Shown in pieces: positions 29,933 through 35,229 of a stretch of DNA of 64,000 nt. Position 1 is the stretch's first letter; each line of letters begins with the position of its first letter. Below the pieces are notes generated by a model. The model saw only the letters and a program-made list of their open reading frames with translations. It was not told the DNA's origin and made no database searches. Source of the DNA: Favolaschia claudopus (taxonomy: Eukaryota; Basidiomycota; Agaricomycetes; Agaricales; Mycenaceae); NCBI GenBank assembly GCA_037176885.1, contig JAWWNJ010000030.1:1488001-1552000 (forward strand). The letters are read 5' to 3'. The position numbers and the translations under genes were made by a program.

Positions 29933-32088
29933 TTAATTTTCTTTGTGACCGCCAACACCAACACCGCGCTTCCGCTTCCGCTTCTTCATTGGAGATGGCG
30001 GAGCTGCCTGATTAGTTTTATTTGATAGAGGAACCTCGTCAACAGGCATGAGATTATTTTTGACGTGTAGGATGTCCTCCTTGGTCGGGAGTGGGTGTCC
30101 AGTGCTGCGAGAAACAAACTCTTGGTCAGTACCCGTGAGCAAGATTGAGCAACAGAAAAGCTTACGCAATAAACGCCGTGGATAGTCGGTCAACTAATGC
30201 GCTTTTGACCCCGCCAACTTCAAGATTCAAGGTGCGACAGTAATGTTTCAATACGGGAGCTGTCGCAAGGTCTTGGAGTAACTGCATGCGATAGCTGGTA
30301 TAGCCGTTGTCAGATTCGCCTGAGCTTGATTCACCCTCCTCGCGGTCGGCAAGAATCTGCTTAAAACCGTCCAAGATCTCCGTCAAGTACTTGAGAAGCT
30401 GAGAACCGTACTTGTCCATGAACTTGAAGCCCTCAGAAATCACTCGCAGATTCTCGAGCGAGGTGCAAATGTGCGCCTTCTCAACGATTGCATTAAGCAC
30501 ACACTCCGGCAAAAAACACTCGCTGGGATCGTCCTCAGATGGCCGAATGCTCGCCCAAGTTTTATGCCGCCAGTGATCCAGCATCTGGTACAATGATTCC
30601 TTACGAGGAGCGGCCACATTGGCTTGATTTTCCTCGAAATGTTTGGCCCAGCGGTCAACCATTGCCAAATCTGCTGCGCTCCCGTTGGGATCGTGGATCG
30701 GCACACAACAGTCGGGACCGCGATCGATGTACACTTCACCGTTGTGCTCCATGCTAACCGCCCGGGAACAGCATGTTGATGTGGGATTAAACCAGTGAAC
30801 GAGTGATGCTGGTAGTTCAGCCCGTTTGGCAGCGTCAGCCTTCGCCTTCGCGCTGCTGTCATCGGAACCCGGCGGCTGCTGTCGAACCCATTCCGGAGCA
30901 AATGCAATTACCCGCGCAGGTTCTCCATCCCTGCCTGCCCGACCAAGCTGCTGCTCCAGCTTCCCGAGATCCTTCGGGAGATCGAAGACGATAGCTTGAC
31001 GGACGCAAGCGATGTCGAATCCGTACGTTGCAGTGTCGGTAACGATAAGGATGCGAGTTTTGCCGGCTTCGAAGTCCTTCTTCAGCTGTGCACGATACTT
31101 GGGTGTCGACAGCGAGGTATAGGTTTTGATGATGTGCTCCCGTCCCGGAATATCTGCAGGCATGAGACCATCAAGATATATCATGAGCTGGTCGCCCCGT
31201 AGGATTGTCTCGGCGAACATGATGGTCGGGAGTATATCGGCCGCGATCTTCATGTTAATTGGCACAACAAAGCTGACGTCTAGGAAGTGTCTGGTGGTGG
31301 TGGGATGCTGAAAGAAGCGTGGTATATACTTGAGGTTGGGGCGGTCGACAGAATAACGAGCGTGCTTATAAGTCCCGGGTTGTAAGCCCAAGGATTTTGC
31401 TATTATGACGGCTTGCGCAGGCGGAGCCGTCGCCGAGGCTAGAGTATACACAGTAGACTTTGGAAGGCGGATGTGCAAATACACGAGGGAATTATAGCCA
31501 GCCTGAAAGACTCCGGCTTGCCGAACTAACTGCACTTCAGCGATAGACACCCAGCGGACCAGATTGACAAACGCGGCCTTTCTGAGAAGCGCGGTCATCT
31601 CAGTCTCGCAGAGCATCTTGGGAGTCATCACGCCCATGCGAACATCATCGCCCTCCGCCAGTTCTCTGAAGAGATCACGTCCAACGAGACGTGCATCATG
31701 AACCGTGTCTTGATTGATTGCAAGAACGCGCAGACCGCGACGCGACGCGACTTCTGCCTGTAAAAGTGCGTCAGAGGTATCCAGAATCCAAATCGATCAA
31801 GGTACGCACCTGCTGTTCCACGAGAACCTTCGTGGGCACTATTAACAACGCGATACCCTTCTCCGAGCGAGCACTAGCAGCCATTGCTCCAGCCATCAAG
31901 ACCACGGTTTTCCCCATCCCGGTTGCTATCACGCAGAAAACGTTTTTTTTATTGTCGATTTCGAGGGCCAGGTCCAGCTGGAATGGCCGTAGTCGCGTGA
32001 GTTTGCACCTTGCAGATAGAACGCGCTCCATCCATTGAGCGGGAGTTTCCGGCTGTGAGACTACTTGAATGGGTGGCGAAGAGTCCAT
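29933..32088 (-). CDS. RecQ-type helicase with degenerate DEAH box, three exons
   Basis: Exons 32088-31810, 31757-30166 and 30104-29933 are joined by GTGCGT..ACAG (52 bp) and GTAAGC..GCAG (61 bp) introns. They give an uninterrupted frame of about 680 residues. Seen: Walker A ATGMGKT at residues 55-61; LASATAPP (motif III-like); a helicase C domain with DTATYGFDIACVRQAIVFDL and motif VI QQLGRAGRDGEP near 362. A C-terminal SAP-like helix pair follows (APVLKHYCRTLNLEVGG...ALVDRL), then a basic tail MKKRKRKRG. Known: RecQ helicases unwind DNA 3'-5' using a DEAH motif for Mg-ATP. Odd: that motif reads AEVQ (residues 166-169, WVSIAEVQLV), so ATP hydrolysis should be impaired. An upstream in-frame ATG at 32139 is an alternative start. 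It converges on a DUF6589 fragment. Confidence 0.75.
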
Positions 32089-32399
32089 GTTTTGAAATAT
32101 GCATAGATTAAGGGAGTAGAGAAAGGACAGTGAGGACAACTGAGCTCCAGAGCGAGCTCGCGGAGAGGGCGGACGACGTTCGGACGTAGTTCCTTTTTGA
32201 GTGGGTTATTCCCAAAACGGGAGGCCGTCATCACGCCGGGCTGTTCATCAGTGATGGATGTCGCTCCTCAGCGGCAGGGTGTAACAAATTCATGCCTATT
32301 TGAGAGCAGGTAGTTAGTCGGTGGGGGCGGGGATTGTGATGGTAAGGGAGAGAAAGTGGGATCAGTATTTGGCTTCGTATTGCACGTTGCTTACCTGAT

Positions 32400-32624: not shown

Positions 32625-32857
32625 CTGTACTATTTCCACCGTAGATTCAAGTCACAGGTCACAGAGGGACCTGAATTGAATCTATTTTATTTTCGTAACA
32701 TGTCACAGCGCGTTTTGGGGCCATTTCCCATCAAAATTGATCGGAAAAACGCGAAAAATCTCCCTAAAAGGCAATTTAATCACTGATGAATGATGGCAAA
32801 AGTGAAGATGAAGTGTCACACCTCAAACCCATTGAATCTACGGTCGAAATAGTACAG
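32625..32857. mobile_element. TA-flanked MITE, CTGTACTATTTC family, copy 1
   Basis: The ends CTGTACTATTTCCACCGTAG and, inverted, CTGTACTATTTCGACCGTAG have TA on both sides (32623-32624, 32858-32859). Length 233 bp. The second copy is 45146-45522. Confidence 0.75.
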
Positions 32858-32970
32858 TATCAGATTCAGAGTGTTACGCTCGCTAGCATAGTCCTTAAAG
32901 GATAGACCAGCTGGAGGTGAAGTTGGGGGCATAAGATCAATCTTCATGGCAGCAGCTTTAGCATCAGCGA

Positions 32971-33159
32971 CTGTCTCGGTAACCCAGACGTTATAGCGTG
33001 ACCTTGTAAATTGCTTGAGGGCGGTTTTCCTATCTTATCTCTCTCGGAATTGATCCGGCGGAGTTTCAATAAATGATAAGAGAATATGAGGCAACGATCA
33101 CACTATAACGTCTGGGGCATTTGGTGTAGTAACACCCCCCATACGGTCACATCAGTCAC
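32971..33159 (+). repeat. Left TIR with internal palindrome
   Basis: Within the TIR, CCCAGACGTTATAGCGTGA (32983-33001) is mirrored by TCACACTATAACGTCTGGG (33098-33116). It can fold with a loop of about 96 bases. Confidence 0.8.
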
Positions 33160-33246
33160 TCGTGTCATTCGCATCACCGGTACACAGACCCGTACCTGGC
33201 TTCGACTTCGACGCGCCGCCTTTCTGGAGCTCTGCTGCCCATTCGA

Positions 33247-34127
33247 ATGCCCTCGGAACACGATCACGCCAAACGCGCGGCAGATTCCCAACAACTCTTA
33301 CAGGAAGCACGCGAAAAAACGCGTAAACAACGCGACTATGATTCGGAAAAAACGCGTCAAAAACTGGCGTCCCTCTTCGAAGAGCAGACTGGAAAACAAG
33401 CTCATAAATGGCAAATAGACGTGTCGGAGGCTCTCATCTTAGGTCTCGACTCTGTGGTCATCGCGGGCACGGGTGCCGGCAAGACAATGCCATTCATGAT
33501 GCCCGTTATGCTTCACCGCGAGAAATTTGTACTCGTCATTTCCCCGCTCAAGGTTCTTCAAGAGGACCAGGTGCGTCGCTTTTGTCTAAATATTTGTGAC
33601 TCTCTCAATGCCCTGAAGGCTTCGAGATTCCAAGCAATGGGTCTCAAGGCCGCGGCAGTCAATGGAGATACTTATTCGCGGGAGTTGCAGAAAGTGTGTT
33701 AATTAATAGTCGCGTCGTGTCGCGTTTTTGAACTGATCTTTGCCAGGACCTGTACACACAGACACATCACGCCGTTCTCACGTCGCCGGAGATGTGCTTT
33801 GAGCATCCAGATTTTCGCAAATATCTTCGTGACGACAAAACAGGGAAACGGATTCTTGCTGTTATCATTGACGAAGCGCACTGCATATCCCAATGGGGCG
33901 GCGATTTTCGACCTCACTACTCCATGCTGAATCGACTACGCGCTCTAGTTCCAGTTGGCACACCAATTTTAGCCACATCGGCAGCCCTCAACCCGTCTGC
34001 GCTGGCGGAAGTTTGCTCTGGCCTTGATTTGGACCTCAACTCATCATTCTTTTTGAATCTTGGCAACGACCGTCCCAACATCACACCTCTCATATATCAG
34101 ATGAAGCGTGTCAAATCCCTCCGCTGA
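33247..34127 (+). pseudogene. RecQ-type helicase, N-terminal part, 3'-deleted
   Basis: Exons 33247-33570, 33619-33693 and 33747-34127 are each a multiple of three and joined by GT..AG introns of 48 and 53 bp. They give 259 residues. Seen: Walker A GTGAGKT, motif Ia-like VISPLKVLQEDQ, AAAVNGDTYSRELQK, HAVLTSPEMCFEHP, an intact DEAH box (ILAVIIDEAHCISQWGGDFR), motif III-like LATSAALNP, and NLGNDRPNI. The frame stops just after QMKRVKSLR, before helicase motifs IV-VI. The remaining half of a RecQ core is therefore lost. The ATG lies 88 bp inside the left TIR, so the promoter probably sits in the TIR. Unlike the neighbouring RecQ copy, the ATP-binding residues here are canonical. Confidence 0.8.
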
Positions 34128-34242
34128 TAAACCACGGAACTTAAAATAGACTGCAAATAATTTCTGCAGCCTCCCTCGATGGTGAGTCCGGGTGTATGAA
34201 AACATTGCTAGCACGATAAGCACGATCTGAGTGCAATTGAGA

Positions 34243-34929
34243 TCATCGAAATTGATGGAGAACGGTCCAGCTTACATTGGAAGGGTTCTTATTTGGATTG
34301 CGAGTTTGCTGGCCTTCCGTCCGCGCCAAACGAAACAACAGTTCCCAAAGATTCGGTGCTTTTGATTTCACAAGTTTGACCGTCTGCGGAAACGACAACG
34401 ATGTCAATTCCGCCTCACTGATATCATCCCCAAAAGGCGATTCAAAAATATCTGCCAGGCCTTCCAACTCTCTCTCAAAAATCTCTCGACTGCATTCTAA
34501 AGCAAAGTGCTCCATCACAGATCTTGCAGCCTCGGGACGTCCTTTCCGTGAATTTGGAGATCTCGGAGGCTTATGCCATCGCCGTATGATTCCAGGCAAC
34601 AACGGGCTGGTGCATAATCCCCTACGCGCCGCCCGGACAGTCGCGTCCCGCGTGCAATCTCTATCTCCCCAACTCAGTGCATCCAGAAAATGTGCAACCG
34701 TGAGTCCATTCCCCTGAATCACAGCGAGAATCTTCAATATCTTGACTGCGAGTGGACCGAGGGGCAATTTAGATGTGCTGGGCGTGCTCGATAGCTCATT
34801 GTCGCCTTCATCGATGGGGTCAGATCCTTTGTCGATATCGCGCGGGTCAAAGTCTGACTCTGAGTCTGATTCTTGCTCGGAAGATTCAAAGCCGGGGTAG
34901 GTGTGCTCAGAGGACAAAGATTCTGCCAT
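34243..34929 (-). pseudogene. DUF6589 protein, N-terminal part, 3'-deleted
   Basis: ATG 34929 (MAESLSSEHTYPGF) opens an acidic Ser/Asp-rich lead, followed by LAVKILKILAVIQGNGLTVA then HFLDALSWGDRDCTRDATVR, LPGIIRRWHKPPRSP and KSKAPNLWELLFRLA. This is the pattern I associate with DUF6589 N-termini. Coding probably continues to a GTAAGC donor at about 34275 (218 codons). The open frame beyond it, to 34243, is read-through. No further DUF6589 exon is found before the RecQ stop at 34127, so the C-terminal half is deleted. The start lies 108 bp inside the right TIR. The partner half of this gene is seen separately at 29040-29885. Confidence 0.7.
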
Positions 34930-35036
34930 TTGGGAATGAAAGCAGGTAGTATTGTGGAAGAAACAGGAGCGATGGATGACGACAAAGTGCCTAAGCAAAA
35001 GTACTTAGTAGCATTTGCGTCATCTTCGACAGCTCC

Positions 35037-35221
35037 GTGACTGATGTGACTATATGGGGGGTGTTGCTATACCAAACGCCCCAGACGTTCGGATGTGATC
35101 GCGGGCCAACTTTTCTTATCATTTATTGAAACTCCGCCGGATCAGTCCCGAGAGAGATAAGATAGGATTCCGCAGGAATCCGTGGCCCGCGTCACTCCGA
35201 ACGTCTGGGTTACTGAGACAG
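35037..35221 (-). repeat. Right TIR with internal palindrome
   Basis: CCCAGACGTTCGGATGTGA (35080-35098), continuing to GCGGGCCA at 35108, is mirrored by TGGCCCGCGTCACTCCGAAC...TCTGGG (35183-35209). A small GGATTCC-TGC-GGAATCC hairpin sits at about 35165-35181. Confidence 0.8.
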
Positions 35222-35229
35222 TCAGCGAC

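Follow-up and report, generated by a model that had tools for sequence, protein, structure and literature searches.

What kind of mobile element occupies positions 32971-35221 of a 64,000-nucleotide stretch of Favolaschia claudopus DNA (contig JAWWNJ010000030.1, positions 1,488,001 to 1,552,000; the window), and which proteins move it? The first-pass annotation of this locus described a unit of about 2.25 kb with terminal inverted repeats (TIRs) of 185-189 bp and the sequence TCAGCGA outside both ends, and proposed a RecQ helicase and a DUF6589 protein as the mobility genes of a new type of DNA transposon. Our analysis indicates that the window element is very probably an internally deleted and non-autonomous member of a family of TIR DNA transposons whose full-length copies carry a DUF6589 DDE transposase and a RecQ helper. 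TIR alignment and reading of the flanking sequence confirmed the unit, which is 2,251 bp long with TIRs of 189 bp (left) and 185 bp (right), the local alignment score of the pair being 180, whereas none of 300 dinucleotide shuffles exceeded 28 (Table 1).

The F. claudopus genome (264.57 Mb in 460 contigs) was searched for the TIR, 40 of 175 candidates being scored, and at least 43 related copies were found. Copies of 5,806 bp on C70 and 6,040 bp on C68 have the same TIRs as the window element, are surrounded by perfect 8-bp duplications (TGGGACTC and GAATGCAC, respectively) and contain, between their TIRs, one gene for RecQ and one for DUF6589 on opposite strands. A divergent copy of 6,179 bp (C21:786756-792934) has the termini TAGTCTCGG, a perfect 8-bp duplication GCATCCCC and the same convergent pair. 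Full-length TIR copies enclosing convergent RecQ and DUF6589 genes, which the annotation proposed to look for, thus exist at C70, C68 and C21. A Pfam scan located DEAD and Helicase_C domains in the C70 and C21 elements; the scan of additional open reading frames (ORFs) covered six of C70, none of which matched a Pfam family at E 0.1, and four pieces of C21.

Convergent pairs recur elsewhere in the genome, with 33 of 66 DUF6589 stretches having a convergent RecQ partner within 9 kb, compared with 7 same-strand and 5 divergent pairings, in a count whose rows are not independent as they include haplotype copies and tandem units. By our own arithmetic, chance alone would give approximately 0.5 neighbours, whatever their orientation. 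The count used 66 of 72 DUF6589 rows and 104 of 150 helicase rows, after the removal of weak rows and of those giving a second piece of the same copy. Together with the gene content of the full-length copies with TIRs and duplications, this recurrence gives good support to RecQ and DUF6589 as the mobility genes. Element ends could not be assigned at every pair: at C19 both genes and the left end are present and the right end was not found, and the 400-600-bp pieces examined at the C12, C80 and C150 pairs yielded no ends. Four left ends (L013-L015 and L017) and one TIR piece (L022) had no partner end within about 10 kb. Loci L018-L021 were considered as fuller elements and rejected, being TIR-end fragments embedded in a larger repeat; this repeat, which holds these TIR ends and a DUF6589 N-terminal ORF, is at least 6 kb long and 98-100% identical on four contigs. 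At C24:1475144-1488596 (L044), RecQ/DUF6589 units are arranged head to tail with a spacing of 5,970 bp, three copies by match positions; the 831 bp common to two units are identical, and a real tandem and an assembly artefact are both possible. Four TIR matches in alternating orientation form a palindromic cluster of about 500 bp at C122:540225-540728.

In the window copy, the RecQ start codon is located at 33247, 88 bp from the inner edge of the left TIR, and that of DUF6589, on the minus strand, at 34929, 108 bp from the inner edge of the right TIR, in agreement with the annotated convergent genes starting about 90-110 bp inside the TIRs. The DEAD domain of the helicase was recovered in two pieces (E 1e-8 and 3.4e-7; Pfam scan), and matches to the RecQ family TIGR00614 (1.8e-8 and 1.4e-18) were both below the model cut-off due to the helicase pieces being partial. 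The presence of DUF6589 in the window was upheld through the C70 copy: the 253-aa right-end ORF alone matches no Pfam family, but it corresponds to the N-terminal part preceding the Pfam domain, and the exon that follows in the C70 gene matches DUF6589 (PF20231) at 1e-88. Window positions 32971-34105 align to C70 355-1476 and 34102-35165 to C70 5036-6126; therefore, approximately 3.56 kb is missing from the window copy, which is centrally deleted as the annotation stated. The deleted segment includes the C-terminal helicase half and, in DUF6589, the region in which all three catalytic residues are predicted. Contig C122 carries this same insertion with the same deletion, and so does C135, where it is split by rearrangement. 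At this last site (C135:439744-457918; L009 and L033) about 16 kb separates the left part from the right part, the two are oppositely oriented, and the right end carries additional sequence, which suggests an inversion with a breakpoint within the element.

Duplication length was determined for 19 distinct insertions with both ends resolved, an insertion seen on two or three contigs being counted once. Duplications were 8 bp in 15/19 (L012, L016, L023, L024, L025, L026, L027, C70, C68, C21:786k, C245, C20:2054k, C121, C80:298k and C12:2466k; that of L023 read by eye), 9 bp in two (C65:629k and C14:2072k) and 7 bp in two (C21:391k and the window element). The count leaves out two of ten short copies without resolved ends and the C24 tandem units. 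The exact direct repeat outside the window element is 7 bp, a C following the right copy only and not the left; since 8 bp is the mode in the sister copies, this fits an original 8-bp duplication, TCAGCGAC, from which one C was lost at the left junction. Loci L010 and L011 represent the same insertion as L012; on these two contigs 5 additional bases (GACAC) separate the left TIR from the duplication, and on the third contig they are absent.

Target sites without the element, which the annotation proposed as a check, were found for some insertions and not for others. An element-free version of the C70 target site lies at C70:496350-496612, with 100% identity across the junction over 263 bp, and further copies of this target-site repeat are 91-96% identical over the whole query. 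Two such sites were found for C21 (100% over 280 bp) and two for the short copy L026 (99% over 165 bp). For C68 there was no close site, the junction-crossing matches being 74-75% only. For the window insertion there is one site with 83% identity (C72), three 98% matches passing the junction by 7 bp only; for L024, repeat copies match the right flank but only 15 bases left of the junction, which is not decisive. The family thus has the TIRs, target-site duplications and target sites without element that characterise class II TIR transposons.

In AlphaFold models, two divergent DUF6589 proteins have folds like those of the DDE transposases Hermes, P element and RAG1, Hermes being the top fold match of model 1; these likenesses are between predicted and solved folds. 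A candidate D-D-E triad, predicted at D300, D471 and E713, is conserved across the DUF6589 alignment (86 rows). The predicted fold and this triad make a DDE transposase the most likely identity of DUF6589. The annotation's suggestion of DUF6589 as a candidate transposition protein therefore gains support, and the contrast that it drew with elements using DDE enzymes is probably wrong, as DUF6589 itself has a predicted DDE/RNase H-like fold. A C/DxxH motif between the second D and the E is absent from 64 of the 86 rows, occurs once in 20 and twice in 2, and forms no conserved column. The DUF6589 profile gave one chance-level match only (E 0.43) among solved structures, and no solved hAT chain; in addition, no Pfam family other than DUF6589 passed the family cut-off for the C70 and C21 proteins. 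In the C21 protein the Pfam DUF6589 model covers residues 135-528, whereas the first predicted catalytic Asp is residue 82; the model begins after this residue and therefore does not span the whole fold. A protein search at E ≤0.001 (7,992 candidates scored) returned at least 241 DUF6589 proteins, and the 120 of these that were listed are from many different Agaricomycetes and from metagenomes. The literature searched did not mention DUF6589, PF20231 appearing only in an unrelated optics paper, and contained nothing combining RecQ, transposon, terminal inverted repeats and Agaricomycetes.

Judged by its sequence, the helicase of the element is a RecQ-family superfamily 2 (SF2) helicase: one C70 helicase exon matches TIGR00614 at 6e-24 (partial, below cut-off), and the best solved-structure matches of the C70 exon are RecQ, WRN and BLM. 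In the mechanism that we propose, DUF6589, as a DDE enzyme of RNase H fold, would bind the TIRs, excise the element and join it into a target cut with a mostly 8-bp stagger (7-9 bp seen), which would be a cut-and-paste mode. The RecQ-family helicase probably acts as a helper that unwinds either the ends of the transposon or intermediates of repair. Each window TIR contains its terminal motif in inverted copies (Table 1), which are a possible hairpin substrate. Deleted copies such as that in the window would be moved by the proteins of intact relatives.

An alternative is that RecQ and DUF6589 are passengers, the TIR elements being moved in trans by an unrelated transposase encoded elsewhere. 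Many TIR copies are short and gene-poor, and therefore movement in trans does occur; however, divergent families, each with TIRs of its own, have retained this convergent pair, the six further C70 ORFs lack a Pfam match, and the predicted fold of DUF6589 is itself transposase-like, making passenger status very unlikely. A DUF6589 transposase with a RecQ helper can also be compared with named groups. The closest solved folds to the DUF6589 models belong to hAT (Hermes) and P element transposases; P elements generate 8-bp duplications, as do hAT elements in the descriptions available, and we know of no RecQ partner in either. DUF6589 differs from both in that its sequence matched neither solved chains nor any Pfam transposase family and in having no conserved C/DxxH motif. 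Of the hAT characters, the 8-bp duplications (15/19) fit and the C/DxxH motif does not, and hAT is disfavoured as a name. Helitrons, which lack TIRs and duplications and encode Rep plus a Pif1 helicase, are disfavoured by the TIRs, the duplications and the RecQ type of helicase found here. KDZ elements such as Zisupton and Dileera are likewise fungal TIR transposons with 8-bp duplications in the available descriptions, which include no helicase; their transposase family is a different one, to which nothing in the elements here gave a Pfam match, and KDZ is disfavoured as a name. Kolobok transposons target TTAA, in contrast to the varied, mostly 8-bp (7-9) duplications observed here.

Whether the transposon type is new, as the annotation claimed, is a separate matter: the RecQ/DUF6589 pair is real, but novelty is not established, as the helicase-bearing fungal TIR transposons AcademH and KolobokH are in print. 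KolobokH, a fungal lineage of Kolobok DDE transposons, resembles the present elements in having a RecQ helicase, and one rhodophyte Kolobok has RecQ on the complementary strand (available text of PMC9587614). In KolobokH, though, RecQ is described as encoded downstream of the transposase domain (PMC9587614) and not in a separate convergent gene, and the C/DxxH motif expected there is not conserved in DUF6589; with the duplications also differing, KolobokH is disfavoured as a name and its identity with these elements is highly improbable. We consider it more probable than not that the elements are AcademH or close kin, in which case the mechanism would be unchanged and the novelty mostly gone. 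AcademH, known here by description only, is a helicase-bearing Academ lineage with DEAD and Helicase_C domains reported in Basidiomycota (Kojima 2020, as cited in PMC10045372 and PMC10799480), and it thus shares with our elements the TIRs, the helicase domains and the host phylum. Size agrees as well, bivalve Academ consensus elements averaging 5,565 bp in the part of the source available, close to the 5.8-6.2 kb found here, and Academ is not among the five superfamilies for which the available text of PMC9587614 gives a common C/DxxH motif between the second D and the E, in keeping with DUF6589. Conversely, the duplications of AcademH are given as 9 or 10 bp in the available text of PMC10045372, compared with 8 bp in 15/19 and 9 bp in 2/19 here, and no link between DUF6589 and Academ appeared in the text searched. 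The element was not filed as AcademH because the reported duplication length does not agree. Other repeated fungal DNA with RecQ-like genes includes the subtelomeric RecQ repeat of Mycosphaerella graminicola (PMC4522978) and the CPA element of Tolypocladium; unlike the present elements, these have no TIR, duplication or DUF6589 partner in the descriptions available.

It is a tentative and less probable reading that DUF6589 defines its own DDE superfamily apart from Academ and Kolobok, with a dedicated convergent RecQ and mainly 8-bp duplications. Such a superfamily would account for many DUF6589 proteins that lack annotation, together with some of the RecQ gene expansion in Agaricomycetes, and its helicase would take an active part in transposition by acting on TIRs with inverted repeats inside them. 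If the family is instead AcademH, a predicted structure and a Pfam handle become available for that lineage. Among mushrooms, DUF6589 is a common family that is uncharacterised, and its recognition as a transposase would mean that many host gene models, and some of the RecQ genes, belong to mobile DNA. With a DDE transposase that travels with its own RecQ, it would also become testable why a cut-and-paste element would need a helicase.

Table 1 Features of the window element (window coordinates)
Feature	Position	Strand	Basis or remark
Left target-site duplication, TCAGCGA	32964..32970		
Left TIR, 189 bp, starts CTGTCTCGGTAACCCAGACGTT	32971..33159	+	TIR alignment
Terminal-motif inverted copies within left TIR	arms 32983-33001 and 33098-33116		inverted-repeat listing
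RecQ helicase gene, 5′ part	33247..34105	+	ORF pieces 33133-33702 and 33732-34127; helicase C-terminal domain deleted
Central deletion junction	34102..34105		flanking alignments to C70 overlap by 4 bp
DUF6589 gene, 5′ part	34102..34929	-	first exon in ORF 34243-35004; start of next exon in ORF 34044-34271
Right TIR, 185 bp	35037..35221	-	TIR alignment
Terminal-motif inverted copies within right TIR	arms 35080-35093 and 35196-35209		inverted-repeat listing
Right target-site duplication, TCAGCGA	35222..35228		followed by C

A further SF2 helicase gene, the product of which has DEAD, Helicase_C and SAP domains, directly adjoins the element outside its TIRs (window 30162-32205, minus strand). A short element resembling a mariner-type miniature inverted-repeat transposable element lies at window 32625-32857 between TA dinucleotides, with TIRs of about 28 bp (starting CTGTACTATTT), and is absent from the matching site on contig C135 (L009).
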